Origin: Hyphomicrobium facile
Lineage (GTDB): Bacteria; Pseudomonadota; Alphaproteobacteria; Rhizobiales; Hyphomicrobiaceae
Length of the DNA stretch: 64,000 nucleotides
Assembly: GCF_900116175.1 (NCBI RefSeq)
Contig: NZ_FPCH01000002.1
Coordinates: forward strand, 558,001-622,000
Direction of reading: 5' to 3'
Shown: positions 1,949 to 35,123 of the stretch, one piece after another
Position numbering within the stretch: the first letter of the stretch is position 1
Layout: each line of letters begins with the position of its first letter
Notes under the pieces: model-generated
Told to the model about the DNA's origin: nothing
What the model saw: only the letters and a program-made list of their open reading frames with translations
Database searches by the model: none
Translations under genes and position numbers: made by a program

Positions 1949-3220
1949 GTGTTCAATTCCGACACCCCAAGTGCGATGTCTACGACCGGAATGATGATGA
2001 AATCAAAAGCAGGCATCGCAAATTCCGCACATTTTTGCGCCGAAGGCGATCCGCTGCTCAGCGTCGAGACGATAATTGACGACTCCGGCCTGCACGATTC
2101 GATTGCGCAGTGGGATTCGCTGCACGAGCGCATCTCGCCTCGCCTGCCGTTTACGACGCATTTATGGGTTTCCACCTGGTGGCGACATTACAAACGCAAC
2201 AACGTAAAGGCGAAAGATTTCCCTCGCCTTTTTCTATTGCGTAACGACAGCGGCGAGCTTGTCGCGGTTGCACCGATGGTTGTGACGCAACGGCCCGGCT
2301 ATGGGCCGCTGAGCTCGAAGGAGCTTCAGTTTTTTGGAGCGGACGCAAACGTTACGGAATTCCGCGGTCCCCTCTGTCTCCCCGAGCACACCCCAGCGGT
2401 CGTTCGCTCGATTTCTGATTTTCTGGACAACGCGAACGGAGCCGACTGGGTGCAGTGGCGCGGGCTGCGATTGCAACAGGCGTCGACGATGTTGCCCGCG
2501 AGAATCCGTCAAAAACCTTACCTAGACACGACGGTTCATATTCTCCATCTGACATCGACCTGGGAGCAGTTCAGAGCGAACCTATCCAGGAACATGAAGC
2601 AGGCCATTAGAAAGTGTTACAATTCCTTGGCCAGCGAAAAAATCACGCCTCAGCTCCGCATCATAAAGAAGCCTGAGGATGTACCATCAGCACTTGATCG
2701 ACTTTTTGCTCTTCATGCAGCGCGTGCCAATGCGGCCGCTTCGATCAAACATGCCAATGTCTTTGCTTCGCCTGTCAGCCGTTCCTTCATGCTTCAGTAC
2801 TGCACGGAACTCGCTCGGCGCGGGGCGCTGCGAATTTTTCAACTCGTGATAAACGACGAGGTCGTGGCAACCAGAATCGGCTTCAAATTCGGGGACGAAT
2901 TATATCTCTATTACTCCGGTTACGATCCCCGCTGGGGCCGCTACAGCGTAATGACGACGGTCGTCGTGGAAGCCGTTAAATGGGCGATCGACAACAAGTT
3001 GCGGATCGTGAACCTATCGACCGGAACCGATATTTCGAAAGCTCGCTGGGATCCGCACGTCATCTCCTATACGGGAGGCTTTTCAGTCCGCAAAGGCTAC
3101 AGGAGCCGAACCCTGTTCGATATGGTTTCCCGCTATCGGGAGCGATCGCTCCGAGCAATCATTACTGCGACTCTCGTAGCTCCCCAGCTTCAGGATAAAC
3201 TGGGGTTACTTGTCATATAA
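1949..3220 (+). CDS. GNAT-superfamily N-acyltransferase, CelD/BcsL-like
   Basis: This 423-residue protein looks like the two-lobed GNAT proteins of the CelD/BcsL (Acetyltransf_6, FemAB-related) group, which transfer acyl or aminoacyl groups and often occur beside polysaccharide genes. The family signature SRNMKQAIRK lies near residue 210, and the C-terminal lobe shows the GDELYLYYSGYDPRWGRYS pattern of the acceptor and acyl-CoA binding fold. There is no signal peptide, so it should be cytoplasmic. The first codon is GTG at 1949; ATG at 1976 or the ATG triplet at 1991 are equally possible because no clear ribosome binding site decides. It is convergent with the NRPS gene, 48 bp apart, and may act on the polysaccharide or on the metabolite. 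Confidence 0.8.
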   Translation: MFNSDTPSAMSTTGMMMKSKAGIANSAHFCAEGDPLLSVETIIDDSGLHDSIAQWDSLHERISPRLPFTTHLWVSTWWRHYKRNNVKAKDFPRLFLLRNDSGELVAVAPMVVTQRPGYGPLSSKELQFFGADANVTEFRGPLCLPEHTPAVVRSISDFLDNANGADWVQWRGLRLQQASTMLPARIRQKPYLDTTVHILHLTSTWEQFRANLSRNMKQAIRKCYNSLASEKITPQLRIIKKPEDVPSALDRLFALHAARANAAASIKHANVFASPVSRSFMLQYCTELARRGALRIFQLVINDEVVATRIGFKFGDELYLYYSGYDPRWGRYSVMTTVVVEAVKWAIDNKLRIVNLSTGTDISKARWDPHVISYTGGFSVRKGYRSRTLFDMVSRYRERSLRAIITATLVAPQLQDKLGLLVI

Positions 3221-3268: not shown

Positions 3269-6200
3269 CTATCGAGCACGTGCTTCGCGCCGACGCTGCA
3301 TCAAGTCTCTGCGGAAACTGGCGCGGTTCTGTTCCGGGGCAACAGATGCCGCATCACGTTCGCGGTTTGCGAACGAAGCGGCCAAGCTTCGCAAAGTCGG
3401 GAACTGAAACAGGCGCACAAGCGACACTTTCGTACCCATGCGCGTGCGGATCTTCTCCACGACGCTGACCATCGTCAAAGAACTGGCGCCGAGGTCAAAG
3501 AAGTTGTCATCGAGCCCGACCTCAGCCAATCCCAAAACGTCCTGGAAGATGCTCGCTAGCTCGCGTTCCACGTCCGTCGCCGGCGCGACAAAGGCCGTCG
3601 CGGTCTCGTGGCGCGCGCGATCGGGCGCGGGCAGAGCTTGGCGATCGAGTTTACCGTTGGGAGTTAAAGGCAACGCATCGAGCAAGACAAATGCCGACGG
3701 CAGCATGTACTCCGGCAGCGCCTTGCGCAGATGCTGACGCAAGGCCGGCATGAGAGAATCTTCCCCTGCGGCCCGGAGCACAGGGCGATTGGCATACTGA
3801 GACCAATCCGGCGAAGCGCTATCATCGGTGTTGGCGACACCAATGACGCCCGTCTCAGTCGCGCGTGTCACTCCCGGCACGCGAGGACGATAGACTGCAT
3901 CGAAGAATTCGCGTCCGGCGGCTGACCACTCGATGGCCACATCGCCGTTTTCAGCGAGGGATCTCACGTCTTCGGGGTCGATGCCCTCGGTTTGCAGACG
4001 GCTGTCGGTGGCGTGACCGGCCAGAGAGCCCAATCTCGCCGAAGGTGGCAGCGCGTTGAGCGCGTCAAGTGCCGCTACCGCCGATGCCACGCGGGCATTC
4101 GGGATTCCGGTCACGCGAATGGGTGATTGTGCAGATCGCAAGATGTCGCCCAACGCTTCGATCGTGCATAGTTGCGGCGCCTGCACCGTCGTCGTTGCGA
4201 CGGGCGAAAGCGATATTCCACCTTGCTTACGGATGACGACGTCGTACCGGAAGCGCGTCATCTCGGTCTGCGCGCGCCCGGTCTTCAGTTCCACTTCGAC
4301 ACCTTCGACCGAGGGCATGAACTTCGGTAGTGCCTGAAACAGCTCTGGGTCCAGAACCAACTCCGCCTCGTCATCGACCCGCTTGCGCAGACGTGCGCGA
4401 AGCTCGTCAGCCTGCGTTTCCGGCGAGGCTTTGAGCAATTCGATCTCTGCCAGCATGACCTCAAGAAGGGCCCGGCTACGCACATCGCCCACGAAGATCG
4501 CCCCGCCCGGCGCCAGCTTTTCGACGCACTGCGTGAGAACATCGACGAAGTAATCGACGTTCGGAAAGTACTGCGCCACGGAATTTATGATGATCGTGTC
4601 GAACGGTCCGCCATCCATGGACGCGAGCGTGTTTGCCGCTCGCTGCTCGAGAACGACGTTGCCTAGCCCCTTCTGATCAGCCTCGTTTCTCACGCGGGCA
4701 AGTGCCGCCGCGGAGAGGTCAATGCCGTGGTAGCGATCGCAGTTGGGCGCAACGCGCAACAGGATCATGCCTGTTCCGCAGCCGATCTCGAGGATGCGTC
4801 GTGGCCGCAGATCCCGGACCCGCTCAACCGTCCGTTCGATCCAATCCTGCATCTCGGCGTCGGGGATTTGTTCGCCGGTGTAACTGCTCCGCCAGCCCAC
4901 TGTTTCAGAGACCGCGTCACCGGTACCGCGATACGTTTCGTCCCAGATCGTTTCCCAATGCGCCGTGCTCGGAGCGGCAGACGCGCGGCTCCCATTGGCT
5001 GCAGGCACGACATAGGCAATGAGGCGTTGCTCGCCGCTACCTTCGTCGGACCGCGAGACGACTGCGCTTTGTTTCACCGAGGGATGCCGGCTCAGCACCG
5101 ACTCGATCTCGCCGGGCTCAATCCTATGACCGCGAATCTTAACCTGCTGATCGAGCCGGCCGAGGTACTCAATCGTACCATTGTGGAGCCAGCGCCCGAG
5201 ATCGCCCGTGCGGTAGAGACGCTCATCGCCCCGGCCGAACGGATCGGGGACGAACCGCTCTTCGGTCAGTTCGGGCCGTCCGAGGTAGCCGCGCGCAACT
5301 CCTGCGCCACCGATGACGATTTCACCGGGCACGCCAATAGGCAGTGGACGCATGGATTGATCGACCACGTAGACACGGGTGTTCGCGATCGGCCCGCCAA
5401 TGGTGATCGGATCGCCGGCGCCGCCGACCTTGGCCGTCGTCGACCAGATGCAGGTTTCGGTTGGGCCGTACATATTATGGATCGGTCCCTGGTATCTGGA
5501 ACGCAATCGATCGATCAACACGCCCGGGAGCGCCTCCCCGCCCAGCAGCAGCATACGCAAATGCCCCAGCGCATTGAGTGAAGCATCGTCGGACGCCAGG
5601 ATGCTCGCAAGAGATGGCGTGGCCTGCAGGTGGGTCACGCTGTGGCGGGTGATTTGAGAGGGAATATCCTGGTTCAGCTCATCGTCGCCAGGATTGGCCA
5701 TCCGGCGCAATTCATCGAGGTTTGGAAGGTTGGCCAACACGTCTTCAGTCGAGATGCCGAAATCGATCAAGCAGGCGATTTCGTCGACGCCATAGGCCTT
5801 AAGCTTCTCGATCTTGGCGACGCAGGATGCCGGCGTACCAAATAGACCTGCCGTTTCGAAGTAGCGCGCGAAGGCGTGCTCCATGATGGCGTCGAGTTCT
5901 TCCGGCTGCAGATCCGACAAGGCCATACGAGGGTCGGAAGCGTCGCGGTCATCGCGCTTGGCAAAGGGCGTCAACTCCCACCGCATTTTCGCAACCAGGT
6001 CGGTGGACGTCTTGAGGTATTCAATGAAGGGGCCGCGAACCGTGCGACGCACTTCTTCTTCATCTGCACCGACGAAGGTGTGCAGCATCAGCGACACCGA
6101 CCCCCGACCCTCATGGCCCGCATCGGCCCAGGCCTTGCGATAGACGGCAACGTTTTCGATGAACTGCTCGGGCTTCATCACCAGCAGGTTCGTCAGCACG

Positions 6201-8935
6201 TTGGCGCCCATTCTCCCTGCGAGCGCAAACGTATCGGGGTGAGAACTGGCAGTTACCCATAATTTGGGTTCTTTCTGCACCGGCGGCGGGAAGGTCTTCA
6301 GCTGAACCGTCTGCCCATCGCCATCGATCGTCTCGACGGCCTCGCCGCGCCACAGCGCTTTGACAGTCTCGATACCGCGAGCAAAAAGCTCGCGCCGGTT
6401 TTTGTAGTTTTGAGGCTGCAAAGCGAAATCACGTACGTGCCAGCCGGAGGCGAAGCTCAGACCGACGCGGCCGTTGGACAGATTGTCCACTATCGACCAC
6501 TCTTCGGCGATACGAAATGGACTGTGCAACGGGAGCACGACGCTGCCGGCGCGGATGGCGACGCGCTTGGTGACGGCCGCGACTGCCGCACCCGTCACCG
6601 CAGGGTTCGGGTACAGACCGCCAAACGGATGGAAGTGACGTTCCGGCGTCCAGATAGCGGAAAAGCCATTCTCGTCAGCGAATTTTGCGCCCTCAAGCAA
6701 CAGACGGTATCTGCCGCTGGCTTTGCCCGCAGCATCGTCGGAGTCGGCTGCAAAATAGAACAAACTGAAGTCGATGGGTGTGGCGCTCGCTCGTTGCTGG
6801 GCTGCGCGTGCCTCGCGCTCAGCTTCTTTCTGGATCACCACCTTAAATCCGCGCGCCAGCGTCCAGAACAGCTCAAGCACCGATATGTCGAACGAGATGC
6901 TGGTTGTTGCGAGCCACACGCCGGGTGCCGTTCCGAGCGCTTCATCCATCCCGGTGAAGAAGCTCGTTACGTTACGGTGCTCCAGCATCACGCCTTTGGG
7001 GCGTCCTGTGGAGCCGGACGTGAAGATCACGTACGCCAGGTTGTTACCCGTCACCGCAACCCGCGGCCGCTCGCCATTTCCATTCTGACCGGTTGGGTCG
7101 GCGCAGATGACATTCAATCCCGCGGGCAATTTGGTGCGCAGGTCCGATGTCGTAACGACGATGCGCGCTTGCGTGTCTTCGAGAATGATCGCGAGGCGCT
7201 CGCTCGGGTATGCCGGGTCCATCGGCACATAGGCCGCGCCGGCTTTCAGAATGCCGAGCAGGCCAACCACCATCTCGATGGAACGCTCGATAAATATTCC
7301 GACCATCTGATCCGGCTTCACGCCTTGGGCGAGGATCTCGTGGGCCAGCTGATTGGCGCGCTTGTCCAACTCGCGGTAGGTGATCGCCCTGTCGCCATCA
7401 ACGAGCGCTACTACGTCGGGCGTGCGATCGGCCTGCGCCTCAAAGGCTTCGTGAATGCAGCCGGGGCCGGGCAACGGCTTTTCCGTCGCGTTCCAGGTCT
7501 CAAGCACCAACCGTGCATCTTGCGATGGGAGTCGCGGCAGGTTGACAATCTTCGCATCCGGATTGTCGGCGATCGCATCCAGCACCACCTGCAGCATGTC
7601 GCCGATCCTGTCGGCCGCCGATCGCGAGAAGCAACCGGTATCGTAAGACAGCTTGAACGTTATCTGAGGCCCGTCGTAGGCCATCACGTTGAATGCAAAG
7701 TTCGTCTGGTCGTGGAGCTTGAAATGCCGGTGTTGCCACTCGGGTCCAAACGACTTGAAGCGCGCGTCGTTGGTCTCTGCGTTGAAGACGACAATCGTGT
7801 CGAAGAGAGTCTGCGAGCGGGGCAGCTCGCTGTGGCGAAGCACATCCGGCAGGGGCGAATGCTCGAAGGCGCGCGTCTCCACCTGATTGCGCCGCAATTG
7901 CTGGCAGAATTCGAGCGCACTCAGATCACCGTCAAGCTTTACCCGCACGGGCAGAGTATTGATGAAAAGTCCGACGATCCGATCGGCGTCCTTGATGGAT
8001 GACCGGCGGCACGTCCGCGTAGCGCCAAAAGCCACATCGTCACGGCCGGAAAACGCCGAAAGCACGAGCGCCCAGGCCGCCTCTACGACGGTCGACGTTC
8101 GCAGCCCAGCCTTATCGCAGAGTGCGTGAAGTTTCGCGGTGTGCGCCGGAGACAGCGCAAACTCCAGCGTGGCGTGAGGTCCGGATGTGCGCGCCGGGCC
8201 ACCCGAAAGGCGTAATGCCTCCAAGTTGGTCGGCGTCTGAAACCCCGCGAGGGCCGTCCGCCAGAAGGTCTCGGCAGCATCAGCGCTCGACGCAAGATGC
8301 TCGCCGAGCCAGGCTATAAAATCGCGATACGGCGGCCGGTTTGAAAAGGACGGTTGGTCACCTCGCTTAAGGGTGGCGTACGTATCGAACACGTCCTGGA
8401 CAACAAACGCGAAGCAGGAGTCGAGGATCGCGTGGGAGTAGGTGAAAACGAGCTGGTGCCGGTCTGCGCCAAGGTGAAACAGAGTTACACGCCAGAGCGG
8501 CGCGACGTCCAAAGGCAGAGCCGTCAATCGATCTTCCGTCAGGAAGGCGCTGAGCGCCGCCACCTGATCATCAGACGATAATGCGGATAAATCCCGCACT
8601 ACTAACGGGACTTTAACCTCGCTTAAAACTTCCTGAATCGGGTTTCGCAAATCCTTCCAGCTGAAGCGGGTGCGCAGGATCGAATGCTGCGCGGCGACGA
8701 TGGCCCAGGCGCGCGCGAGAAGATTGGCGTCGATCGGCTCGTTGATCTCGACCTCAAGTTGCTCCACGTCAACGCCGGGAATTTGCGCCTCGAGGTGGTG
8801 GAACAGCATTCCCTGCTGGAGCGGGGAAAGAGGATATAAATCTTCAACCATGGTTCCAGCTTCCGATAACATGCGTGCAATTTCGAATTGTTGAATGAGC
8901 ACCTCGTCCTCCCGCTCAGAACCGGAGGACATCAT
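3269..8935 (-). CDS. one-module NRPS: C-A(LLM monooxygenase)(methyltransferase)-PCP
   Basis: A 1,888-residue synthetase. I start it at ATG 8935, just before SSGSERED; the frame is open to 9118, but the extra 61 residues look non-coding, and ATG 8851 (MVEDLYPLSPLQQ) is also possible. Order of parts: condensation domain (30-470) with SHAILDS at 167-173 in place of HHxxxDG, so H168 and D172 are kept; adenylation N-part with FTSGSTGRPKG (638-648) and FDISVLELF (682-690); an inserted luciferase-like FMN monooxygenase of the MupA/Atu3671 type (about 720-1055, TPERHFHPFGG); the rest of the A core with NMYGPTE (1154-1160) and the A8 motif (1260-1276); a SAM methyltransferase (LEIGCGTG at 1382-1389) between A8 and A9; then LPEYMLP, PNGKLDR and a carrier domain with Ser1819. 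There is no thioesterase or epimerase. Specificity residues read by eye, D-I-L-H-L-L-M-I-W, resemble glycine codes. It presumably hands its product to the divergent PKS. Confidence 0.93.
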   Translation of the reverse strand: MMSSGSEREDEVLIQQFEIARMLSEAGTMVEDLYPLSPLQQGMLFHHLEAQIPGVDVEQLEVEINEPIDANLLARAWAIVAAQHSILRTRFSWKDLRNPIQEVLSEVKVPLVVRDLSALSSDDQVAALSAFLTEDRLTALPLDVAPLWRVTLFHLGADRHQLVFTYSHAILDSCFAFVVQDVFDTYATLKRGDQPSFSNRPPYRDFIAWLGEHLASSADAAETFWRTALAGFQTPTNLEALRLSGGPARTSGPHATLEFALSPAHTAKLHALCDKAGLRTSTVVEAAWALVLSAFSGRDDVAFGATRTCRRSSIKDADRIVGLFINTLPVRVKLDGDLSALEFCQQLRRNQVETRAFEHSPLPDVLRHSELPRSQTLFDTIVVFNAETNDARFKSFGPEWQHRHFKLHDQTNFAFNVMAYDGPQITFKLSYDTGCFSRSAADRIGDMLQVVLDAIADNPDAKIVNLPRLPSQDARLVLETWNATEKPLPGPGCIHEAFEAQADRTPDVVALVDGDRAITYRELDKRANQLAHEILAQGVKPDQMVGIFIERSIEMVVGLLGILKAGAAYVPMDPAYPSERLAIILEDTQARIVVTTSDLRTKLPAGLNVICADPTGQNGNGERPRVAVTGNNLAYVIFTSGSTGRPKGVMLEHRNVTSFFTGMDEALGTAPGVWLATTSISFDISVLELFWTLARGFKVVIQKEAEREARAAQQRASATPIDFSLFYFAADSDDAAGKASGRYRLLLEGAKFADENGFSAIWTPERHFHPFGGLYPNPAVTGAAVAAVTKRVAIRAGSVVLPLHSPFRIAEEWSIVDNLSNGRVGLSFASGWHVRDFALQPQNYKNRRELFARGIETVKALWRGEAVETIDGDGQTVQLKTFPPPVQKEPKLWVTASSHPDTFALAGRMGANVLTNLLVMKPEQFIENVAVYRKAWADAGHEGRGSVSLMLHTFVGADEEEVRRTVRGPFIEYLKTSTDLVAKMRWELTPFAKRDDRDASDPRMALSDLQPEELDAIMEHAFARYFETAGLFGTPASCVAKIEKLKAYGVDEIACLIDFGISTEDVLANLPNLDELRRMANPGDDELNQDIPSQITRHSVTHLQATPSLASILASDDASLNALGHLRMLLLGGEALPGVLIDRLRSRYQGPIHNMYGPTETCIWSTTAKVGGAGDPITIGGPIANTRVYVVDQSMRPLPIGVPGEIVIGGAGVARGYLGRPELTEERFVPDPFGRGDERLYRTGDLGRWLHNGTIEYLGRLDQQVKIRGHRIEPGEIESVLSRHPSVKQSAVVSRSDEGSGEQRLIAYVVPAANGSRASAAPSTAHWETIWDETYRGTGDAVSETVGWRSSYTGEQIPDAEMQDWIERTVERVRDLRPRRILEIGCGTGMILLRVAPNCDRYHGIDLSAAALARVRNEADQKGLGNVVLEQRAANTLASMDGGPFDTIIINSVAQYFPNVDYFVDVLTQCVEKLAPGGAIFVGDVRSRALLEVMLAEIELLKASPETQADELRARLRKRVDDEAELVLDPELFQALPKFMPSVEGVEVELKTGRAQTEMTRFRYDVVIRKQGGISLSPVATTTVQAPQLCTIEALGDILRSAQSPIRVTGIPNARVASAVAALDALNALPPSARLGSLAGHATDSRLQTEGIDPEDVRSLAENGDVAIEWSAAGREFFDAVYRPRVPGVTRATETGVIGVANTDDSASPDWSQYANRPVLRAAGEDSLMPALRQHLRKALPEYMLPSAFVLLDALPLTPNGKLDRQALPAPDRARHETATAFVAPATDVERELASIFQDVLGLAEVGLDDNFFDLGASSLTMVSVVEKIRTRMGTKVSLVRLFQFPTLRSLAASFANRERDAASVAPEQNRASFRRDLMQRRREARAR

Positions 8936-9170
8936 GCGGATAATTTGTATCGAGACTTTACCGTTTAGGGTGTAGAACCCGCGGGTCCGCGTCCACTTAC
9001 AATGCCATCCATCCTTTACATTAATTTTAAGTCTACCCTGCCCTAATAAGTGCCAGGATTGATTAAAGACTGAAGCAGGTTCAGTTTGGCGCCCTTTTCC
9101 TTGCGCGGCTTCGCCCACATCGATTGGGAATTCGCTTTCGGGAAACGATTATGGGGTAAACGGAGGCCGC
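8936..9170. promoter_or_regulatory. shared divergent promoter region of the NRPS and PKS genes
   Basis: This is the 235-bp stretch between the two megasynthase starts. It contains an AT-rich block around 9016-9040 and a small ACCCGCGGGT palindrome near 8978-8990. A ribosome binding site GGAGG at 9162-9166 stands 4 bp before the PKS start. Both genes must be transcribed from here, so one regulator could control both. I could not identify confident -35/-10 pairs. Confidence 0.5.
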
Positions 9171-12100
9171 ATGACACAGGGGGATCGGACTATTAGCGAA
9201 GATAGTGCGATTGCTATCATTGGCCTCTCGGGCAGGTTCCCCGGCGCCTCCAATGTCGCCGCGTTCTGGAAAAACCTCCGGGAAGGCCGCGAGTCCATTC
9301 GCGTATTCACCGAAGAAGAACTGCTCGCCTCAGGCGCTTCGCTCGAAGTCGTTCGGGATCCGGCATACGTCAAAGCTTGCGGCTATCTGGACGGAATAGA
9401 CCAATTCGACGCTGCATTCTTCGGATTGTCGCCGCGCGATGCCGCGGTCTTTGATCCGCAGCACCGTTTCTTTCTGGAATGCTCTTGGGAAGCTTTCGAG
9501 GACGCGGGATACGTCGGCGAAAAAATCGACGGACGAGTCGGGATCTTTGCTGCCTCCGGCGCCAGCGAATATTTCACTTATAATCTCGTCACCAACCAAG
9601 AGGTTCTGGAAACGATCGGCGCATGGCTTTTGCGCCATACGGGCAACGACTCCAATTTCCTTGCCACACGTGTTTCGTACGAGTTGAACCTCAGCGGCCC
9701 GAGCATGAACGTGCAGACGGCCTGTTCGTCGTCGCTCGTCGCAGTGCATGTTGCATGTCAGAGCCTGCTCAATGGCGAATGCGATGTTGCGCTGGCCGGC
9801 GCTTCGACGATCTATCCCGAGCAAACCGGCTATCTCTATAGGCCGGGAGAGATCCTCTCGCCTGACGGCCATTGCCGTCCCTTCGACGCCGATGCCAGTG
9901 GAACCGTCATGGCTTCGGCGGCGGGTTGCGTCGTGCTGAAGCGGCTTGCCGACGCCGTCCGCGACGGGGATTGCATTCGTGCTGTGATACGGGCTTCTGC
10001 CATCAACAACGACGGTTCCGACAAGGTGGGTTACCTTGCGCCAAGCGTCAGCGGGCAGGCGCGGGTGATCTCCGAAGCCCTCGATCTGGCCGGTATCGAC
10101 CCGAGCGACGTATCCTACATCGAGGCCCATGGAACCGGCACGCTGATAGGCGATCCGATTGAGGTCGCAGCGCTTGTCGAGGCGTTTGGTCCGGAAGTGC
10201 CCAAGCAGTCCTGCGCCATCGGCTCGGTCAAATCCAATGTAGGGCACGCGGGAGAGGCCTCGGGCATTTGCGGCCTCATCAAGGTGATCTGCGCACTCGA
10301 GCACCGCGAACTTCCGGCAAGTCTTCACTACCAAAGGCCAAACCCGCAGGCCGATCTGTCGAATACGCCGTTCTTCGTCAATGCCGGCCTTCAGCCATGG
10401 GATGTCCGGTCCGGCAAGCGCCGGATCGCCGGCATCACGAGCCTCGGTGCCGGAGGTACCAACGCTCATCTCATTCTCGAAGAGGCACCGCCGCGAAGGC
10501 CAGCCATTGGCCGCGAAAACGAATCGCAGTTGCTGGTGCTCTCGGCGCGCAGCAACAAGGCGCTCGATGCGGCTTCCAAAAACCTCGCCGATCATCTGCG
10601 CACAGATCCCCATCAGCGGCTCGACGACGTCGCCTTCACGCTGATCAATGGACGCGAGACGTTCGAGCATCGCCGGGCGTTCGTCGCGACCAGCGCGGCT
10701 TCGGCTGCTGCGTTGCTCGATGAGAACGATGTGCGTCGTGTGTTCACGAGCAAGGCTGCACGCGAGCCTCATTCCACGGCATTTCTTTTCCCCGGCGGCG
10801 GGGCGCAATACTGTGGGATGGGCGCCGAACTCTACGAAAAGTTTCCTGAATATCGCAAAGCGATCGACGAATGCCTTGCGGTCGTCCAGCCGGAACTTGG
10901 TGTCGATCTGCGCTCGCTGATGTTCGCGCCGCCGAGCTGGGCTGAGATCTCAAACCTGCGGCTTGCCGCGCCGTCGCTCGCCTTGCCTGCTCTCTTCGCA
11001 ACGGAATATGCTCTGGCAAAACTGCTGGCATCGTGGGGCGTGACGCCTGCTGCCCTGATCGGCCATAGCGCCGGCGAGTATGCGGCGGCTTGCATCGCCG
11101 GCGTCCTTTCGATGCGCGATGCGATTTCGCTGGTCGCGATGCGCGGCAGGCTATTCGAAAAGCTGCCCCGTGGTGCGATGCTATCCATTCCGCTTCCCGA
11201 GGCGGAAGCGCGGGCATTCCTGTGCGATGAACTATCGATCGCCGCAGTCAATGGTCCGGCCCTGTGCGTCGCATCGGGTCCCGTTCGCGCGATCGCGAAC
11301 CTCGAGCAGAAGCTATCTGCTGCGGAGGTCGAGTATACGCGCGTCCACATCGATGTCGCTGCGCACTCGGCGATGCTTGCGCCGATCCTGCCGGAGTTCG
11401 AACGCTACTGCCGCAAGATTGCGTTCCAGAAGCCGCGGATCCCGTTCGTTTCCAACTTGACGGGAACGTGGATCACAGACGACGAAGCAACCGACCCAAC
11501 TTACTGGGTTCGCCATCTGCGCAGTACGGTGCGCTTCGACGAAGGCGCGGCAACGTTGTTGCAAACCCGTGGCATTGCGCTGATTGAGGTGGGTCCCGGA
11601 CGCACGCTTTCGAGCCTCTGCCGGCAGCAGCCGGTAAAGGCCGCGGTCGTCGCCAATACGTTGCGCCATCCTCAGGAGAGCGTGTCCGACGTCGGGTTCC
11701 TGCTGGAAGCTGTCGGTAAGGTCTGGGCCGCTGGCGGCGACATCGATCTCAGCCGGTTGGACCGCGGTTCCCGAAGCCGGGTGCCGCTCCCCACGTATCC
11801 CTTCGAACGTCAGCGGTATTGGATCGAAAAAGGTCATGCTCCCTCCGCTCAGCCGACGCTGAAACGTAGGAGCGATCTAACAACGTGGTTCTCTGCGCCA
11901 TCCTTCCATCGTTCTGTTCAGCCCAATCCGCTGTCGACGGAAGAGCTTGGAAAGCCATGGCTGATATTTACGGACGGCTCATCGTTGGCGAGCGCGCTCG
12001 TGACACGTCTTCGCCGGTCCGGCGCGACGGTGGCAACCGTGGAGCCCGCACCCCGCTTCGCCGTCCGTGGCGACCTGACCTTCGGCATCGATCCGTCGAA

Positions 12101-15100
12101 TGCTGAAGACTACGCGCGCCTCAAGGTTGAGTTGCGGCAGGAAAACGCGAGCCCTGCACACGTCGTGCACCTGTGGGCTTTGGCGCAGCGTCCATGGCGG
12201 CTCTTCAGTTCCCCACCCGACGCTGATCTTGCCGCGTGGGATCGCGACATCGTTCGCTACTACGACAGCCTGTTTCACTTATCGCAAGCGTTTGCCTTGG
12301 GCGGGGACAGCTTCCGGCTGACTGCAATCGGCACGGCGATAGAAGCGCTCGAAGGCGAGCACGAGGTGCATCCCGAAAAGGCGACATTGGCTGGCGTCTG
12401 CAGAGTCTTGCCGCGCGAAACGCCTGAGGCCTCCTGCTCTGTTGTGGATGTGGTCGTCCCTCAAGCCGGCTCGGACGCCGAAGCCCAACTGGCGGACCGG
12501 CTTCTGGCCGAGGTGCAAGGCGACAATCGCAGCCCCCTCGTCGTCCTTCGCAAGAACGGACGTTGGGTGCAACGTTTCGAACAACTGCCGCTTGATCCGG
12601 CGCCGACGCCGCGTGCCTGGCTGCGGGAGCGCGGCGTCTATCTCATCACGGGCGGACTCGGCGGCATTGGCCTAGAAGTCATGGAGCATCTGGCGCGGCA
12701 TGGGAAAGCTCGCCTCATAAGCGTCGGCCGCTCCGCGCTTCCCGAAGAATCGGCATGGGATTCCTGGCTGACAGACCACGGCGAGGATGACGATACCTCG
12801 CGCAAGATCAGAGGTGTCAGGAAGCTCCGTGCCATGGGAGCCGAGGTGATGCTGGCCGCGGCCGACGTCACGGATCGCAAAGCCATGGCTGGCGTGATTT
12901 CTGAGGCGCGACAGCGCTTCGGCCGGATCAATGGCGTCTTCCATAGTGCCGGCCTGCTGCAGGATCAGTTGATCGCGCTCAGGCCGCCGATTGCCCGCTC
13001 GCCGGTTCTCGATGTCAAGGCCAAGGGCGCGTTGGTGTTGCAATCGCTCTTCGGTGAAAGCGAATTAGATTTCCTGGTGCTGTTCTCGTCGGTCAGCTCC
13101 GTTCTCGGGCTGCCGGGACAGGTGGACTACACGGCCGCGAATGCTTTCCTCGACGCGCTCGCAAAAGCCCGCTCGGCACGCGGTTGCCGCACGCGCACCA
13201 TCAGCATCGACTGGAACGCATGGAAAGTCGGCATGCTTGCGACACTGGTTCGCGAGCCGCAACAGCATGGCGCTAAAGCTATTGCCCGCACGGGTCCGCC
13301 GCTCGGCGATTGTCTGAGCGACGACGCGGAACAGTCACGTTTCCGCTCAGTGCTGAGCCGCAAGACGCACTGGCTGCTCGGGGATCATGTCGTCAAGGGC
13401 GGCCAATCGGTGATGCCGGGCACAGGCTACCTGGAGCTTGCACGCGCGGCATTGGCGCATCGGTCCGAAGACAGACCGATCGAGATCCGCGATCTCACTT
13501 TCCTGCAACCGTTCACTGTCGGCGTTGACGAGACGCGTACGTTGAATGTCACGCTGAGCCGCGACGGCGATCATACCTTCACGGCGTTCGGCGATTCCAA
13601 GGAGCAACCTTTTGCGACGGCTCACGTCGCGTATTTCGACGCGCCGGCAACGCCCCAGGAATCAGTGGCGGCCATCCGCCAGCGTTGCCCCCGTTCCGCC
13701 GAGGTTCCGAACGGTCGACTTGTGCAGCACTTCATGGATTTTGGTCCACGTTGGGCCAACATCCAATCGATCCAATTCGGAGAGAACGAGGCGCTGATCC
13801 ACATCGCCTTGCCGGATGCCTACACTTCCGATCTCTCAGAAACTGCCCTGCACCCTGGTATGCTCGATATGGCAACGGGTGCAGCGCAGATGCTTATCCC
13901 GGGCTTCAACGCCCTCGAGGAATTCTACGTCCCGTTTTCATATGGCCGCGTTCTGGTGCGGCAGGGCCTTACCTCGAAGCTTTACAGCCACGTGAGATTG
14001 CGCTCTGCAGACGGCAAAAGCGCGATCTTCGATGCGACCTTGCTCGACGAGCATGGCAACGTGCTCGTCTCAGTCGAGCGCTACATCATGCGCCGCGCAC
14101 AGTCGTTCGCTACGACCGGCGTCGCGGCTTCAGACGCCGCCGCTTCGACCAAGCCGCGGGCCGCGGAGAGCGCCGCGGAAGGTTACCTGCGTGAGGGCAT
14201 GACGCCTTCAGAGGGACTGGAAGCGCTCGATCGCATTCTTGCCAACGACATTTCTCCCCAGGTCATCGCCTCAACGCTCGACGTCGAACTTTGGCTTTCG
14301 CGGCTGAATACCGGCGCTCATCGCGTATCTGCGGCGCAGACGACCACCGCCCAACCTGCGGCGGACGGTGCACGTATCGACGCCGATATCGTCGCGCCCC
14401 GCGACACGGTCGAGCGGGAGCTCGCAGCAATGTGGAAGGAGATGCTCGGCGTACCGCATATATCGATCACGGACGACTTCTTCGAACTCGGAGGTCAATC
14501 GCTGATCGCAGTCCGTCTCCTCAATCGGATTTGCAAGCATTACGCGGTCGAGTTGCCCCTATCCGTTCTGTTTCAGGCTCCGACGATTGCCGCGACGGCG
14601 GAACTGCTGCGCGGTCCTTTCAAACCGGACGAAGCAGAAGCTTCATCGCAGCCCGCCTTCGAGGACGTACCGCCAGCTACGGATTCTGCGACAAGCATCA
14701 AACCGTTGGAAGCGCCGGCCGGGGGTGGTGCTAGAACACAACCCGCGCCGAAGCGCTTCCAGTATCTGGTCAGCATCGCCAAAGGCGGAAACCGACCCGG
14801 CCTGTTCTGCGTCCATGGCGCCGGCGGCAACGTACTCAACTTCCGCGATATTTCCCGGGCGCTGCATAAGGAGCAGCCGTTCTTTGGTCTCCAGGCGCGC
14901 GGCATCGATGGCACCAACCCGCCGCACGCCTCCATACCGGAAATGGCTGCAGCCTATCTCGAGGAGATCCGTGCACAGCAACCGCACGGTCCCTATCTGC
15001 TGGCGGGCTATTCCGGCGGGGGCGTGGTCGCGTTCGAAATGGCGCGGCAGTTGACCGATCTCGGCGAGGACGTACCTCTCGTCGTCTTCTTCGATACCTA

Positions 15101-15626
15101 TCACCCGCAAATGCCCCTCCAGACCGTAGGCTTCGCCCGCAAGGTTTCGCGTTTGCGTAATGAAGGTCTCGGCTACCTCAGCGAGATCGTTTCGGTCAGA
15201 CTCGAATGGCTCCGGGAAGCACGTGAGCGCTGGCAGATCTCACGCTGTCTCCGGCAAAATAAGATTGTTCCGCTGCACCTGCGCAATCGTCATCTGACGG
15301 ATAATTTTGGGCAAGCCGCTTCGAAATACCACCCGCAGCCGTGGGCTGGCCGAGCGATCCTTTTCCGGGCGGCAACCGCGAACTACGTCTTCAGCGGCGG
15401 AGGACTCTGCTATGGCTGGGACAAAGTGATCATGGGCGGTGTTGAAACCGTGGTTATCCCCGGCAATCACGATACCCTTATGCTCGGAGCCAATTCGCAA
15501 GAGCTGATGGGGCACCTCAACAAGGCTCTCGAAAGTGCGCTTGTCCAGCCGGGTGATCAACAGAGCGCGGTTGCGATTTTCGGATTTGGCAGCAAAGCCG
15601 AGCTTTCCGATGTGCGCGCGATTTGA
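9171..15626 (+). CDS. one-module type I PKS: KS-AT-KR-DH-ACP-TE
   Basis: A 2,151-residue synthase starting at ATG 9171, with GGAGG 4 bp upstream. KS (10-440) has Cys185 in TACSSS, His320 in HGTGT and KSNVGH. AT (about 545-850) has Ser633 in GHSAGE; the substrate region reads VAAHS where malonyl enzymes have HAFHS, so malonyl-CoA is the likely but not certain extender. A long linker leads to KR with TGGLGGIG from 1160, Ser1307, Tyr1320 and the ANAF asparagine; HSAGLLQDQ keeps the second Asp of LDD, pointing to a B-type alcohol. DH follows KR: H1406 in HVVKGGQSVMP and D1566 in HPGMLD. ACP has Ser1777 in GGQSL. The thioesterase has Ser1948 in GYSGGG and His2100 in GNHDT. All catalytic residues are present, so one elongation, reduction, dehydration and release are expected. 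KR before DH is unusual. The upstream partner is presumably the divergent NRPS. Confidence 0.95.
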   Translation: MTQGDRTISEDSAIAIIGLSGRFPGASNVAAFWKNLREGRESIRVFTEEELLASGASLEVVRDPAYVKACGYLDGIDQFDAAFFGLSPRDAAVFDPQHRFFLECSWEAFEDAGYVGEKIDGRVGIFAASGASEYFTYNLVTNQEVLETIGAWLLRHTGNDSNFLATRVSYELNLSGPSMNVQTACSSSLVAVHVACQSLLNGECDVALAGASTIYPEQTGYLYRPGEILSPDGHCRPFDADASGTVMASAAGCVVLKRLADAVRDGDCIRAVIRASAINNDGSDKVGYLAPSVSGQARVISEALDLAGIDPSDVSYIEAHGTGTLIGDPIEVAALVEAFGPEVPKQSCAIGSVKSNVGHAGEASGICGLIKVICALEHRELPASLHYQRPNPQADLSNTPFFVNAGLQPWDVRSGKRRIAGITSLGAGGTNAHLILEEAPPRRPAIGRENESQLLVLSARSNKALDAASKNLADHLRTDPHQRLDDVAFTLINGRETFEHRRAFVATSAASAAALLDENDVRRVFTSKAAREPHSTAFLFPGGGAQYCGMGAELYEKFPEYRKAIDECLAVVQPELGVDLRSLMFAPPSWAEISNLRLAAPSLALPALFATEYALAKLLASWGVTPAALIGHSAGEYAAACIAGVLSMRDAISLVAMRGRLFEKLPRGAMLSIPLPEAEARAFLCDELSIAAVNGPALCVASGPVRAIANLEQKLSAAEVEYTRVHIDVAAHSAMLAPILPEFERYCRKIAFQKPRIPFVSNLTGTWITDDEATDPTYWVRHLRSTVRFDEGAATLLQTRGIALIEVGPGRTLSSLCRQQPVKAAVVANTLRHPQESVSDVGFLLEAVGKVWAAGGDIDLSRLDRGSRSRVPLPTYPFERQRYWIEKGHAPSAQPTLKRRSDLTTWFSAPSFHRSVQPNPLSTEELGKPWLIFTDGSSLASALVTRLRRSGATVATVEPAPRFAVRGDLTFGIDPSNAEDYARLKVELRQENASPAHVVHLWALAQRPWRLFSSPPDADLAAWDRDIVRYYDSLFHLSQAFALGGDSFRLTAIGTAIEALEGEHEVHPEKATLAGVCRVLPRETPEASCSVVDVVVPQAGSDAEAQLADRLLAEVQGDNRSPLVVLRKNGRWVQRFEQLPLDPAPTPRAWLRERGVYLITGGLGGIGLEVMEHLARHGKARLISVGRSALPEESAWDSWLTDHGEDDDTSRKIRGVRKLRAMGAEVMLAAADVTDRKAMAGVISEARQRFGRINGVFHSAGLLQDQLIALRPPIARSPVLDVKAKGALVLQSLFGESELDFLVLFSSVSSVLGLPGQVDYTAANAFLDALAKARSARGCRTRTISIDWNAWKVGMLATLVREPQQHGAKAIARTGPPLGDCLSDDAEQSRFRSVLSRKTHWLLGDHVVKGGQSVMPGTGYLELARAALAHRSEDRPIEIRDLTFLQPFTVGVDETRTLNVTLSRDGDHTFTAFGDSKEQPFATAHVAYFDAPATPQESVAAIRQRCPRSAEVPNGRLVQHFMDFGPRWANIQSIQFGENEALIHIALPDAYTSDLSETALHPGMLDMATGAAQMLIPGFNALEEFYVPFSYGRVLVRQGLTSKLYSHVRLRSADGKSAIFDATLLDEHGNVLVSVERYIMRRAQSFATTGVAASDAAASTKPRAAESAAEGYLREGMTPSEGLEALDRILANDISPQVIASTLDVELWLSRLNTGAHRVSAAQTTTAQPAADGARIDADIVAPRDTVERELAAMWKEMLGVPHISITDDFFELGGQSLIAVRLLNRICKHYAVELPLSVLFQAPTIAATAELLRGPFKPDEAEASSQPAFEDVPPATDSATSIKPLEAPAGGGARTQPAPKRFQYLVSIAKGGNRPGLFCVHGAGGNVLNFRDISRALHKEQPFFGLQARGIDGTNPPHASIPEMAAAYLEEIRAQQPHGPYLLAGYSGGGVVAFEMARQLTDLGEDVPLVVFFDTYHPQMPLQTVGFARKVSRLRNEGLGYLSEIVSVRLEWLREARERWQISRCLRQNKIVPLHLRNRHLTDNFGQAASKYHPQPWAGRAILFRAATANYVFSGGGLCYGWDKVIMGGVETVVIPGNHDTLMLGANSQELMGHLNKALESALVQPGDQQSAVAIFGFGSKAELSDVRAI

Positions 15627-15704: not shown

Positions 15705-16844
15705 TTAGGGTGAAGCGAAAGGGTTCTCGGGATCCTGTGCGCCAGCGTAGTCGCGCCTGCACGAATTGGTGACAAGCTGACGCCTTACTGCCCGCAGTAC
15801 CGGCATGCCCGAGCCATGCAGAAAGGTTGCATAGGCCGGACAGACTTTCTCCTGCATCAGTTCCCGGCAGCCGGCCATGTCGCGCCCGGCGGCGGAATTG
15901 GCTCGCTCGCCGTATTGGACAGCATACTGCCAAGCCAGCGTCTGCATGTAGCGGCCCGTCTCCGGGGAGATTGACGCGGGAACAGCGGCGCCCTCGGGGC
16001 TCCGGCCAAAGAGAACCGCGTAGTGGACCAGCGCCAGATAGTAACGTCCGACATCGCTCAAATGCACGGTGTCGGAGAAAAGGAGGCGTACACGCGCACC
16101 GGGGGAAGTGGCCGCGATGCCCGGCACCTTGCCATCCCAAAGGGCCGCCGCCAATTCTGCCAAGGCGCCTGCTCCCGGCAACACGCGGACGCGCGGAACA
16201 TCGCCGCGCGCGGGCAAGTCGAGGTTCGCACGGCTCGCGATGCACTCCCACATCAACGAAACCGTCCGCTCGTAATTGATCCAGGGCCAGGGCGCGTCAG
16301 GGTCCACGTTGAGCCAGGTGTGATAAAGCAGAACCTCGCCATCGGGATTGCCGGCCAATAGCTGCTTTGCCATCTCGGTCAAATAGAACGCCGTACGCTC
16401 TTTGCGCGCGATAGCCGGAAGGTCGTGACGTTCCGTGACAACCAGCACGTCGTACTTCTCGCCGGGCGACAGGCGCCGGGGGGACCGCAGCTCCTCGGCG
16501 ACGTTCAAGCCTGCACCGTCCCGATTGTGGCCGGCGCTATACCCCGTCCACTCGGAGGCGGATGCCACCTCCCCTTTCGTCCGTTGGCGCAAAAGTGAGT
16601 AGCCGAGAACCTGCACCTCGAAATCCAAGCGGTTTCCGAGAGATCGCGCGATCTGCTCGACGGCCTCCGGAACACCGTCGCTGAGGCTGTGGCCCGAATA
16701 GAAGGCGCGCACGTGATCCTTGGGCGCCCATGCCTGCGTGCCGGGAGCGCCACGCGCCTCTTCGCTCATGGCCAAGCCTCCGTTGCCAGTGAAGATTATC
16801 AGGGCCGCTAGAACGACCAGCCAACCTCTACATGCCTGCCTCAC
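15705..16844 (-). CDS. exported SGNH-hydrolase-like protein
   Basis: A 379-residue protein with a clear N-terminal signal peptide (hydrophobic WLVVLAALIIFTG, cleavage probably after GLA near residue 25), so it should act in the periplasm or outside. YSGHSLSDG after residue 48 resembles the first SGNH block with its serine, and TVHLSDVGRYY near residue 270 resembles the last block with its histidine. The family includes esterases and acylhydrolases; the substrate is unknown. The start is GTG at 16844, sharing a GTGA overlap with the stop of the phosphopantetheinyl transferase gene, so the two are translated as one operon. A role in modifying the NRPS/PKS product, or an acylated polysaccharide, is a guess. 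Confidence 0.65.
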   Translation of the reverse strand: MRQACRGWLVVLAALIIFTGNGGLAMSEEARGAPGTQAWAPKDHVRAFYSGHSLSDGVPEAVEQIARSLGNRLDFEVQVLGYSLLRQRTKGEVASASEWTGYSAGHNRDGAGLNVAEELRSPRRLSPGEKYDVLVVTERHDLPAIARKERTAFYLTEMAKQLLAGNPDGEVLLYHTWLNVDPDAPWPWINYERTVSLMWECIASRANLDLPARGDVPRVRVLPGAGALAELAAALWDGKVPGIAATSPGARVRLLFSDTVHLSDVGRYYLALVHYAVLFGRSPEGAAVPASISPETGRYMQTLAWQYAVQYGERANSAAGRDMAGCRELMQEKVCPAYATFLHGSGMPVLRAVRRQLVTNSCRRDYAGAQDPENPFASP

Positions 16845-17509
16845 GACGCGGGCTCCGACGTCACGACGACCGCGCTTGCGATATAACCGTCTCTGATGGC
16901 GAAGCGTCCGATAAGTCTATCGTGCATCTGGAACCCTGGCACGGCCCTCTTATACGTCGCCGCAAATGTACCGGCTTGAGCGTCGACGTCGACTGCGAAA
17001 TCGGCGAACTCCAGCATTGCCCCGCTGAGAGGATACTGGCACTTGAAGGCCGCCTCCTTCATGCAGAAGATGAGGTGAGCTGCGACGCCCGGCGTCACAC
17101 CGCAAATGGCAGCCAGCGTCTCTCGTTCCGCCGAATTGCAAACCGAATCCCATAGATCAAACGCGAGCTCGTCTGCCGGCTCGAGGTCGATGCCGATTGC
17201 GACGAAGCCCTGGTCGCGTCGCGCTACGGCCGCAGCCGCCCACCCGCCGGTATGCGTAATGCTGCCGACAAGATCGACCGGCCAGACCGGCATTCGATCG
17301 TGCCCCCGGGGCAAGGCCGCGTCCGCGTATCCGAGGGCCGTCATGGCTTTGCGCGCGCAATTCCGGCCGATTGCAAATTCCAAACGGCGGCGCGGAACGG
17401 CACGGGCAACGACGAGCGCTTCGCCGGCCTGCAGGTCCGGAGGTTCACCCGTCAGCGGGGCTTCGGCGATCGCAATCCTGGGATCGAGCAACTCTGCGAA
17501 GTAATTCAC
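16841..17509 (-). CDS. 4'-phosphopantetheinyl transferase, EntD/Sfp type
   Basis: This enzyme moves the phosphopantetheine arm from CoA to the serine of carrier domains, here most likely Ser1819 of the NRPS and Ser1777 of the PKS. The family motifs are all visible: RRRLEFAIGRNCARKAM, PVDLVGSITHT, GIDLEP (magnesium-binding acidic residues) and FCMKEAAFKCQYP with the WxxKEA-like lysine and glutamate. I prefer the GTG at 17509, giving 222 residues (VNYFAELL, as EntD proteins usually begin); the frame stays open to a TTG at 17599. It is the first gene of a two-gene operon with the SGNH protein (4-bp overlap), and it follows a small open frame by 4 bp. Confidence 0.92.
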   Translation of the reverse strand: MNYFAELLDPRIAIAEAPLTGEPPDLQAGEALVVARAVPRRRLEFAIGRNCARKAMTALGYADAALPRGHDRMPVWPVDLVGSITHTGGWAAAAVARRDQGFVAIGIDLEPADELAFDLWDSVCNSAERETLAAICGVTPGVAAHLIFCMKEAAFKCQYPLSGAMLEFADFAVDVDAQAGTFAATYKRAVPGFQMHDRLIGRFAIRDGYIASAVVVTSEPAS

Positions 17510-17513
17510 GGCA

Positions 17514-17729
17514 TTAGTCCACACGACGCCCGGAGCGAGCCTCAAGTTCTTGGCGCCGTACCGCCGCGAGGTTGGCCACGGATGCGAGTTCAGCCGCAAC
17601 GCTGGTTACCTCCGGAAAGCGACGGCGATCGGTGGCAACTAAGTCGAGCGAATTGCTGGCTTTAAGATTGCGGTTCGCGTTTAGCACCACCTGCGAGTGC
17701 CCGGGCAAATTAAAGACGTTATCGTTCAC
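17514..17729 (-). CDS. possible small protein upstream of the phosphopantetheinyl transferase
   Basis: An open frame of 71 codons from GTG 17729 to TAA 17514, ending 4 bp before the preferred start of the transferase gene, an arrangement typical of translational coupling. The predicted peptide starts MNDNVFNLPGHSQ and has a helical, charged C-terminal half. I do not recognise it. There is no strong ribosome binding site, so it may be chance. Confidence 0.3.
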   Translation of the reverse strand: MNDNVFNLPGHSQVVLNANRNLKASNSLDLVATDRRRFPEVTSVAAELASVANLAAVRRQELEARSGRRVD

Positions 17730-18339: not shown

Positions 18340-19815
18340 GTGGCGGCGTATATGGCTAACACGAGTGTCCGCGTTGAGCTTGGCGCCCTTCCTCGCCGGC
18401 AACTTTCCCGGCTTCCGCGCGCTTGGGCTTCCAAGTTTTCGAAGCTCGATACGTGCGTTTCTGTGTTGGGAATCTTTGAAGCTGCTGCGGTCATCTTGGC
18501 GGCAGCTGCTGCCAAATTTCTCTACATCGATCTCTTCATCGGCCGACTGCAGCCGTGGTGGCCATATTTGGCGCCGGCTCCCCTATTGGCGACCACGCTT
18601 TATCTATTCTTGAAGCGGGCCGACCTCTACGACACGAGTTCTGTCAGCCAACCGGCCGTGCCATATGGCCGGATCTTCGGTGCGTTGGTGACTTCGTTCC
18701 TTCTTCTTCTCGGAATTTTGTACATTCTCAAGGTTGCGGATTGGTACTCGAGAGGGTGGTTTCTCACGTGGTTCGCCATCAGTGCATTGCTCTTGATCAC
18801 CGTACGGATCGTCGGAATGCATTATGTGCGCCGGATGGTGGCGCAGGGCAGAATTCGGCAGCGGATCGCAATGTTCGGCGATCCCGATTTCATTACCGCC
18901 ATGAAAGCCAGCGTCGAAATCGCCGGTCCCGCACCCGGGATCGAAGGAATTTATCTGGCGCCGACGAGCGCTCGTTGCGAGGACCTTCATTCCGATGGCG
19001 GGCTCGACGAGCTTAAGAACGCGATTGAGCGGAGAAGGTACGATACAATAATAATAGGTTTCCCGGCCGAACACATTCAGTCCATCAAAGCGGCCGTGAA
19101 CGATCTGGCGTCGTATTCCACGGAACTGCTTCTCTGCACGAAGCTGGAACGCGAACCACACATCATTCGCGGAGCACGACATATCGGAACGCTTCGGGCT
19201 GATATCGTCAATCTGGTGCCGTTGTCGGAAAGCAATCGCGTTCTCAAGGCGGCACTCGACTACATCTTGGCAGCGGTCGGCCTTTTCCTCTTGTCTCCCC
19301 TCTTCATTCTTATTGCGATCGCCATCAAACTCGATAGCCCGGGACCCGTGTTCTTCCGGCAGCGCCGATACGGTCAGAACAACCGCATTTTCCGGATATA
19401 CAAATTCCGAACGATGTTCGTCACCGAAGATGGGCAGCACATCAAGCAGGCGGAACGCAACGATCCGAGAGTTACCCGCATCGGATGGTTTCTGCGCCGC
19501 ACGAGCCTCGACGAGCTTCCGCAGCTGATCAACGTTTTGACTGGAGACATGTCGATCGTCGGGCCCCGTCCGCATGCCTTGGCTCACGATCAATTATTCG
19601 ATCAGCAGCTCGATCTATTTTCGCTTCGCCGTCGCGTTCGTCCGGGCTTGACGGGATGGGCGCAGGTTCATGGCTTTCGGGGAGAGACAAAGACGACCTT
19701 GGATATCAGCAAGCGCGTGGAACATGATCTCTATTACATCGATAATTGGACGATATGGCTCGACGTCGAGATCATGATCCGCACCATTTTCGTTCTTTTT
19801 CGCGGAGCGTTTTGA
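18340..19815 (+). CDS. undecaprenyl-phosphate hexose-1-phosphate transferase (initiating, WcaJ-like)
   Basis: This membrane enzyme starts polysaccharide repeat units by moving a sugar-1-phosphate, usually glucose or galactose, from UDP-sugar to undecaprenyl phosphate. The 491 residues match the polyisoprenylphosphate hexose-1-phosphotransferase layout: four N-terminal membrane helices, a CoA-binding-like middle domain (about 165-280), a helix near 305-325, then the catalytic domain with [31 protein letters not shown] and [11 protein letters not shown], ending [10 protein letters not shown]. The start is GTG 18340, with ATG 18352 as an alternative. It is the first gene of the exopolysaccharide locus and probably fixes the reducing-end sugar. 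Confidence 0.95.
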
Positions 19816-20062
19816 CTCCGTAATCGGCCCATCGCTAGCGAGCATCCGTTCCACGATCCAGCATCGAACGATGCGGCGAACCCGATCATCGGGCAAAGAC
19901 GGCCGTGCGATGCTGCTCGAAGGAAAATTGATCAAGTGTGCACCAGTGGATCCGAGTAGCGGATCACTCGCCCAAGAAATTCGGTCCTCTGTCGATGACA
20001 GCGGCCTTGGACTATGCCATGGACCAAGCTAGCCATTGTTCTTTGGGGGAGAAGCACAGCCG

Positions 20063-21142: not shown

Positions 21143-21186
21143 AGGCCACTCTCGATCGGCGACGAACACGTCACGTGAAGTCCATC

Positions 21187-22611: not shown

Positions 22612-22952
22612 GGAACATATCTTTCAGGATTGAGGGACCTCGAACTTGATGCGCGCGACCGGCATTAAACTTGGCCGCTCTGTTAGTCAGCTCGTCAAAG
22701 ACCCTGATTACCAGAAAATATTGCGACTATTGCTGGGGTAATCCCCCCCCGATATGGTAGTCGACGGCTTATTGGCCCATTGCAAGTAATGGTTCCCCGA
22801 AAAGCCGCCTTGATAAATCACTTTCGTCCTCCCTACCGATAATGAGTAAATTTAACAGCGTTTATTGTCGGCGTTTGGGCTTTCCAAGCGAACGCTCAAC
22901 TCAAACATACGCATTCGCCTAACGACAGTGGCCAATTGGCATGAGGTGACAA
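22612..22952. other. 341-bp divergent intergenic region
   Basis: It separates the propeller gene (minus) and the polytopic membrane protein (plus), so promoters in both directions are expected. I see a weak inverted repeat GATTACC (22706-22712) / GGTAATC (22737-22743) and a run of eight C after it. A good ribosome binding site GAGGTG at 22943-22948 precedes the TTG start of the next gene. No gene is seen. Confidence 0.5.
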
Positions 22953-23972: not shown

Positions 23973-24024
23973 CAGGGCCGCTTCCGCACTATTTCGAACT
24001 CGGCAACGTTACAGTTCGACCGAG

Positions 24025-24411: not shown

Positions 24412-24491
24412 TCGCGAAATCTACCTTTCGGTTAGGATGCACTTTCCGGTTGGAGCCCGTTATGGGCGGGCGACATATTCCTTATTGCAGC

Positions 24492-35074: not shown

Positions 35075-35123
35075 AAGCTGTTTCGTGCGGCCGTCGCACC
35101 ATGAAGGTGCCGCTCCTCCTCGT

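Follow-up and report, generated by a model that had tools for sequence, protein, structure and literature searches.

A predicted glycine adenylation domain carrying monooxygenase and methyltransferase inserts in a Hyphomicrobium NRPS

Introduction

One adenylation (A) domain of an NRPS in Hyphomicrobium facile is interrupted twice, by a luciferase-like monooxygenase (MOX) and by a SAM methyltransferase (MT), raising the question of whether so divided a domain can be a working enzyme and what it would make. The gene lies in a 64,000-nucleotide stretch of contig NZ_FPCH01000002.1, called the window throughout. A domains with both inserts are termed dual, and 'window type' denotes nine lineages: the genus, genome G346 and loci L065, L066, L067, L068, L069, L070 and L109. 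Features of the window are collected in Table 1.

Table 1. Features of the window around the double-inserted NRPS
Feature	Position	Residues	Strand	Basis or remark
GNAT-type (Acetyltransf_6) protein	1949..3220		+	adjoins NRPS in 4/5 genomes of the genus
NRPS gene, C-A(MOX)(MT)-T	3269..9118		-	ORF; probable translation start ~8851
Thiolation (carrier) domain (T)	3377..3562	1853-1914	-	PF00550
Motifs A9-A10	3641..3718	1801-1826	-	
Insert 2, SAM methyltransferase (MT) core, between A8 and A9	4199..4933	1396-1640	-	PF08242, 5WMM, motifs
A domain part 2, motifs A5-A8, code DILQLGMIW	4979..5683	1146-1380	-	
Insert 1, luciferase-like monooxygenase (MOX), between A4 and A5	5699..6778	781-1140	-	TIGR04020, 6KET, Foldseek
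A domain part 1, motifs A2-A4	6794..7453	556-775	-	
Condensation domain (C)	7517..8845	92-534	-	PF00668
PKS module KS-AT-KR-DH-T-TE, divergent from NRPS	9171..15626		+	domains; conserved partner
379-aa protein	15705..16844		-	signal-peptide-like start and SGNH-like motifs, by eye only
4'-phosphopantetheinyl transferase	16841..17599		-	
Surface polysaccharide genes	18340..45861		.	Bac_transf 18340, GT 20036, Wza-type 25823, Wzz/AAA 27609, Wzx-type 30926
Surface polysaccharide region, also	within 18340..45861			further GTs, acyltransferase 38626, epimerase/dehydratase genes

Architecture of the NRPS

The minus strand holds a single open frame across 3269-9118, along which residues are numbered here, and the plus-strand frame is interrupted by stops. 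Translation probably begins at ~8851 and not at 8935, since a Met there ('TM') is common to the four aligned same-genus orthologs and G346; all stops counted in these four orthologs lie upstream of that Met, their frames being open from residues 71-81 of the window ORF onward. A chance ORF or a frame error is rejected by orthologs with the same architecture and low dN/dS.

Pfam and NCBIfam profiles recover a C domain, a split A domain and a T domain, as expected for the single-module enzyme first proposed, and find no TE after T. The C domain motif SHAILDS retains the second His and the Asp of HHxxxDG in an alignment of six window-type C domains. The motifs follow one another as A2, A3, A4, MOX, A5-A8, MT and A9-A10, a single ordered set that places both inserts within one A domain; a pair of separate A domains is rejected, only one motif set being present. 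Motif positions and profiles thus confirm the central claim of the original prediction, a MOX after A4 and an MT between A8 and A9 of one A domain. The residue bounds given there agree once 61 is subtracted from the full-ORF numbers, except that the MOX ends nearer 1079 than the 1055 proposed. The NRPS is one intact single module, C-A-T, with a double-inserted A domain.

The split A domain bears the substrate code DILQLGMIW, and DILQ.G..W recurs in 118/118 A-MOX-A rows examined, 22 of them dual; these rows include duplicates, since L063, L064 and L027 among the dual rows repeat other loci and some MOX-only rows repeat a genome. We take the DILQLG.IW or DILQ.G..W code to denote glycine, suggesting that the domain activates glycine. 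This reading agrees with the parts of PMC11342130 and PMC10204066 consulted here, which place MOX domains in glycine A domains.

The two inserts

The MOX scores 484 bits against TIGR04020 (curated cut-off 244.45, model positions 1-341 covered), bearing out its assignment to the MupA/Atu3671 type. Its closest solved relative is the PuwE MOX domain (PDB 6KET; 355 bits, 46% identity), which the MOX part of our structure model matches in Foldseek with TMt 0.90 and 0.92. The motifs WTPERHFH.FGG and D(N/Q)(L/I)S.GR are present in 37/37 aligned rows and A(S/A)GW in 36/37, the exception, L068, ending in C. The MOX is a full-length TIGR04020 member, and FMN-dependent oxygenation is predicted from its fold and motifs.

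One position sets the window type apart. Asn replaces His in the LTH motif (LTNLL versus LTHLL) in 13/13 window-type rows, against 0/95 readable MOX-only rows (one more being unreadable), 0/5 corallorazine-like rows and 0/1 Hyalangium row. Since the window-type rows are related, this is one inherited change and not 13 events, and it is counted as one mark. PuwE also has Asn here (LTN).

The MT scores 59 bits against PF08242 and 169.6 bits against its nearest solved relative, the TioS A-MT-A protein (PDB 5WMM); the inserted segment extends beyond the MT core to ~3749. Both GxGxG and NSVxQYFP are intact in 15/15 aligned dual rows, GCGTG being replaced by GVGVG or GVGMG in four corallorazine-like rows. 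An MT between A8 and A9 with a SAM motif, a feature of TioS-type A-MT-A proteins, is found in the window NRPS. Judging by the title of its paper, TioS is reportedly a backbone N-methylating enzyme, and by analogy N-methylation is favoured.

A structure model of residues 556-1745, built from a 37-row alignment, has a mean pLDDT of 84 and a pTM of 0.50, so that the individual domains are well modelled and their relative placement is not. Searched as a whole, it finds 5WMM first by E-value. TioS likewise holds its MT inside the A domain but has no MOX, and the overlay is loose (TMt 0.57, rmsd 10.9), domain placement being different or uncertain. FMN and SAM contacts were judged by motifs and fold rather than from ligand-bound models. 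Profiles, motifs and model agree that both inserts are complete domains, which the original prediction had proposed as its check.

Both inserts are under purifying selection. Compared with five orthologs (four of the same genus, one of another family), the MOX has a dN/dS of 0.03-0.07 and the MT core one of 0.15-0.18; evolution is faster from the end of the MT core to A9, at 0.24-0.38 in the four unsaturated comparisons. The double-inserted NRPS is probably a working enzyme.

The PKS partner and neighboring genes

A PKS stands beside the dual NRPS in 7/9 window-type lineages. The gene is a complete KS-AT-KR-DH-T-TE module in five (the genus, G346, L065, L069 and L109), and in two (L067 and L070) its first part runs up to the contig end; no PKS occurs in the sequence available around the NRPS of L066 and L068. 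The window PKS has all the active-site motifs customary for its domains, and the DH proline is replaced in L069.

Similar pairings without the MT are common among the loci scanned. Among the best 80 of at least 541 relatives, 27 MOX-only loci have a PKS (KS-AT-KR-DH). In most of these pairs (24/27) the NRPS lies upstream of the PKS on the same strand, and in 3/27 downstream; the NRPS stop falls 3 bases ahead of the PKS frame opening in 8/24, gaps exceed 1 kb in three, and 6/27 give no TE match, one of these six being cut. Among dual loci, L069 and L109 have the NRPS and then the PKS, and L063, L064 and L065 are divergent. An order of NRPS then PKS supports glycine loading before C2 extension; as the window genes are divergent, their order of action rests on these relatives.

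The NRPSs of L069 and L109 begin with a formyltransferase domain that retains the INYHDSLLP motif, pointing to an N-capped first residue. Such a domain is found on the MOX protein in 38/80 loci, again among the best 80 of at least 541.

The conserved 379-aa protein beyond the PKS adjoins the NRPS-PKS pair in the genus and in G346. It matches no Pfam family above cut-off, and its structure model (pLDDT 43) is too poor to use, leaving the fold search uninformative. Related genes lie at L056:3081-4163 and near 16137 of L108; one relative (E 6e-18) comes from a Sandaracinaceae locus that also gave Bac_transf and Wza matches.

Relatives and evolutionary history

The same architecture is found in four other genomes of the genus (86-94% identity) and in one genome of another family of the order (65-68%). 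Within the family, 17/103 genomes match the window NRPS: five of the genus with the dual gene (the window's included), 11 that bear a MOX and in which no MT was seen (one, L022, cut by a contig end) and a further genome, G041, in which the match is limited to C and part of A. Sampling the order yields 13/397 matching genomes, which by match extent comprise three dual (G000, G054 and G346), nine MOX-only and one MT-only, and the phylum sample yields 23/398 (two dual, 14 MOX-only, seven MT-only). Viral contigs searched gave two partial matches only.

A wider genome scan covered the best 80 of at least 541 relatives, so that its counts are not frequencies. It holds 14 dual loci: nine of the window type (L063-L070 and L109), four corallorazine-like (L072, L073, L074 and L083) and L071, a long Hyalangium line; the nearest named record, L063, is Hyphomicrobium sp. 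isolate AWTP1-10. The double insert is present in three contexts and several phyla. Together with the 38 such pathways in PMC11342130, this weakens the view that both insertions in one A domain are rare. Dual A domains with corallorazine-like genes as neighbors come from Burkholderia glumae, Pseudomonas gingeri, Streptomyces aureus (contig cut), Kitasatospora and Serratia rubidaea. L055, L073 and L074 (Burkholderia glumae, Streptomyces aureus and Kitasatospora) represent hosts beyond the Serratia and Pseudomonas named in the portion of PMC11342130 used here.

In an A+MOX tree of 66 rows made by a quick method, 12 window-type rows, without L068, form one branch (SH-aLRT 97). This tree is compatible with a single origin of the dual state. 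The MT tree (31 rows) argues that double insertion arose more than once. It rejects one shared origin for the MTs of all dual A domains (AU p 0.003). The Hyalangium MT groups with other MTs of its own line (100/99), and the joining of window-type with corallorazine-like MTs is not rejected (p 0.118). L068 is hard to place: its MT is sister to that of an MT-only domain (92/90), yet its MOX carries the window-type Asn.

Comparison with known assembly lines

A single A domain holding both a MOX and an MT is not new, being in print for another pathway. According to the part of PMC11342130 (2024) drawn on here, corallorazine synthetase has an nMT in its A2 domain, and a MOx sits in the A2 domains of 38 related pathways, every one from Serratia or Pseudomonas. 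Corallorazine-like systems share with the window a MOX and an nMT in one glycine A domain, with the pieces in the same order, but consist of a two-module NRPS with thioester reductase accompanied by FAAL, acyl-CoA dehydrogenase and P450 genes; their MOX is a distant branch that keeps His where the window type has Asn. Queries from the B. glumae corallorazine-like system had no match in the window-type loci searched (the window itself not among them). As the window NRPS is a single module, membership of this system is rejected.

Other systems share one insert or the other. In myxothiazol and melithiazol, the MOX likewise interrupts a glycine A domain between a4 and a5, but the amide-forming module is followed by a TE, and the passage concerned mentions no MT (PMC10204066); a myxothiazol-type amide-releasing module is rejected for the window NRPS, which has no TE of its own after T. 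The SolF protein of solanimycin also has a flavin monooxygenase in a glycine A domain and keeps alpha-hydroxyglycine in the chain, but the monooxygenase lies between a8 and a9, and again no MT is mentioned in that passage (PMC10204066). The PuwE MOX sits between PKS and NRPS modules rather than in an A domain, with an acyl chain as its predicted substrate in the section consulted (PMC4219810). Pairs of FT-A-MOX-A-T and PKS genes (Atu3671-like) resemble the window in the two-gene pairing, the glycine-like code and the MOX insertion; they differ in having no MT and, in most, a formyltransferase domain in place of the C domain. ColG, as described in the part of PMC10127204 used here, has two tailoring domains in one A domain, but these are two MTs and no MOX.

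The window type is distinct by its PKS partner, its MOX Asn and its A+MOX branch. We found no description of the two-gene form, dual NRPS plus PKS, in the open-licence literature searched, itself weak evidence of absence.

Proposed chemistry

We propose, at roughly an even chance, that the dual NRPS opens a two-protein NRPS-PKS line making a C4 product derived from an N-acyl-N-methyl-alpha-hydroxyglycyl unit; the steps, their order and the capping group are inferred. The A domain would load glycine onto the carrier domain, the MT would methylate the glycine nitrogen with SAM, and the MOX, using reduced FMN and O2, would hydroxylate the alpha carbon. The C domain would cap the nitrogen, a role that may fall to the formyltransferase domain in L069 and L109. 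The KS of the neighboring PKS would then accept the N-acyl-N-methyl-alpha-hydroxyglycyl unit and add C2, KR and DH would leave a double bond, and the TE would release a 4-(N-acyl-N-methylamino)-4-hydroxybut-2-enoyl product as an acid, lactone or ester. The passages of PMC10204066 used here report or propose alpha-hydroxylation of glycine by the MOX of glycine A domains in the pathways of myxothiazol, melithiazol and solanimycin. Alpha-hydroxylation with N- or O-methylation of the carrier-bound amino acid, as originally predicted, remains the natural reading of both inserts, with N preferred over O on account of the TioS protein, to which the MT is closest among solved structures.

An MT makes sense if the product retains the nitrogen or if the nitrogen departs as an N-methyl amide; of the two, the PKS partner favors retention. 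Alpha-hydroxyglycine could nevertheless fall apart as in myxothiazol. By this analogy, the N-C(alpha) bond would break, the upstream chain would come off as an N-methyl amide, thereby accounting for the MT, and a glyoxylyl group would stay on the carrier, where the PKS may extend it. Such amide-forming cleavage is ascribed to the same kind of A4/A5 MOX in the glycine A domains of myxothiazol and melithiazol (PMC10204066 and PMC11342130, in part), but in solanimycin the carbinolamide is said to survive (same portion of PMC10204066). We regard cleavage as possible though doubtful, given that the NRPS lacks a TE and is usually partnered by a PKS module bearing KR and DH, and that no NRPS or PKS module is seen upstream in the cluster. 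The first two features likewise make a terminal amide the less likely outcome among the unusual amide, hydroxy or methoxy groups first envisaged.

Oxidation of the nitrogen by the MOX, with the MT acting on that oxygen to give an N-methoxy unit, appears distinctly unlikely. It would fit the frequent formyltransferase domain, since a formylated N-hydroxyglycine would bind metal, and the Atu3671 region, which we presume to be siderophore-related. Against it, the MT is nearest to a protein said to N-methylate the backbone, the MOX of glycine A domains is reported to hydroxylate carbon (PMC10204066, in part), and the predicted site of hydroxylation by PuwE is an acyl carbon (PMC4219810, in part). 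That one insert no longer works, leaving the enzyme to make only one of the two changes, is very unlikely: the faster stretch between MT core and A9 would suit it, but the low dN/dS of both MT core and MOX and the intact motifs of all 15 dual rows speak against it.

Surface polysaccharide context

Beyond its PKS partner, the window NRPS has a large set of surface polysaccharide genes as neighbors. A Sortilin-Vps10-type repeat protein (21187-22611) and a GH9 glycosyl hydrolase with CelD_N (35124-37160) are also encoded within this cluster. Comparable genes flank several relatives: an AAA_31 protein of the Wzz/kinase sort, two GTs, a sulfotransferase and a flippase in L069; a flippase between NRPS and PKS in L070; a GT near L109; a GT, an epimerase and an ABC transporter near L067; and, in G346, an acyltransferase, with Wza, GTs and a UDP-sugar dehydrogenase within ~30 kb. 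None were seen in the ORFs scanned of L065 and L068. This amounts to 6/8 informative window-type lineages, counted from hand-picked ORFs in unequal flanks, L066 being too short. No relevant report of assembly lines in polysaccharide clusters was found in the open-licence literature searched.

A like-for-like control scan, with 14 queries and one method for all loci, gave no clear excess over MOX-only relatives. Export or initiation genes or glycosyltransferases were found in 3/8 window-type lineages outside the query's genus versus 12/50 MOX-only single-module loci (Fisher p 0.41), and export or initiation genes alone in 2/8 versus 7/50 (p 0.60). Corallorazine-like and Hyalangium loci together gave 0/6. 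For export and initiation genes, multi-modular loci (0/18) and single-module MOX-only loci (7/51) did not differ significantly (p 0.18). Any polysaccharide link would thus belong to the whole MOX single-module family and not to the double insert, and it is a lead only. In unrelated bacteria, the MOX-only single-module NRPSs of L096, L098, L108, L111, L112, L120 and L131 stand near polysaccharide export or initiating sugar transferase genes, and several of these loci also have a PKS partner.

A bolder reading is that a two-gene cassette, spread horizontally, builds a four-carbon amino-acyl group, N-methylated and alpha-hydroxylated, for attachment to a surface polysaccharide, the dual A domain being a glycan-decorating rather than a secreted-peptide enzyme. 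We consider this unlikely, having lowered its probability because the like-for-like scan gave no clear excess.

Implications

In a single-module protein small enough for in vitro tests, the locus offers a natural and compact A domain, possibly able to load, methylate and oxidize one amino acid, and the class of product can be predicted from the PKS partner. Should the polysaccharide context hold, this would be a case of assembly-line chemistry acting on surface glycans.
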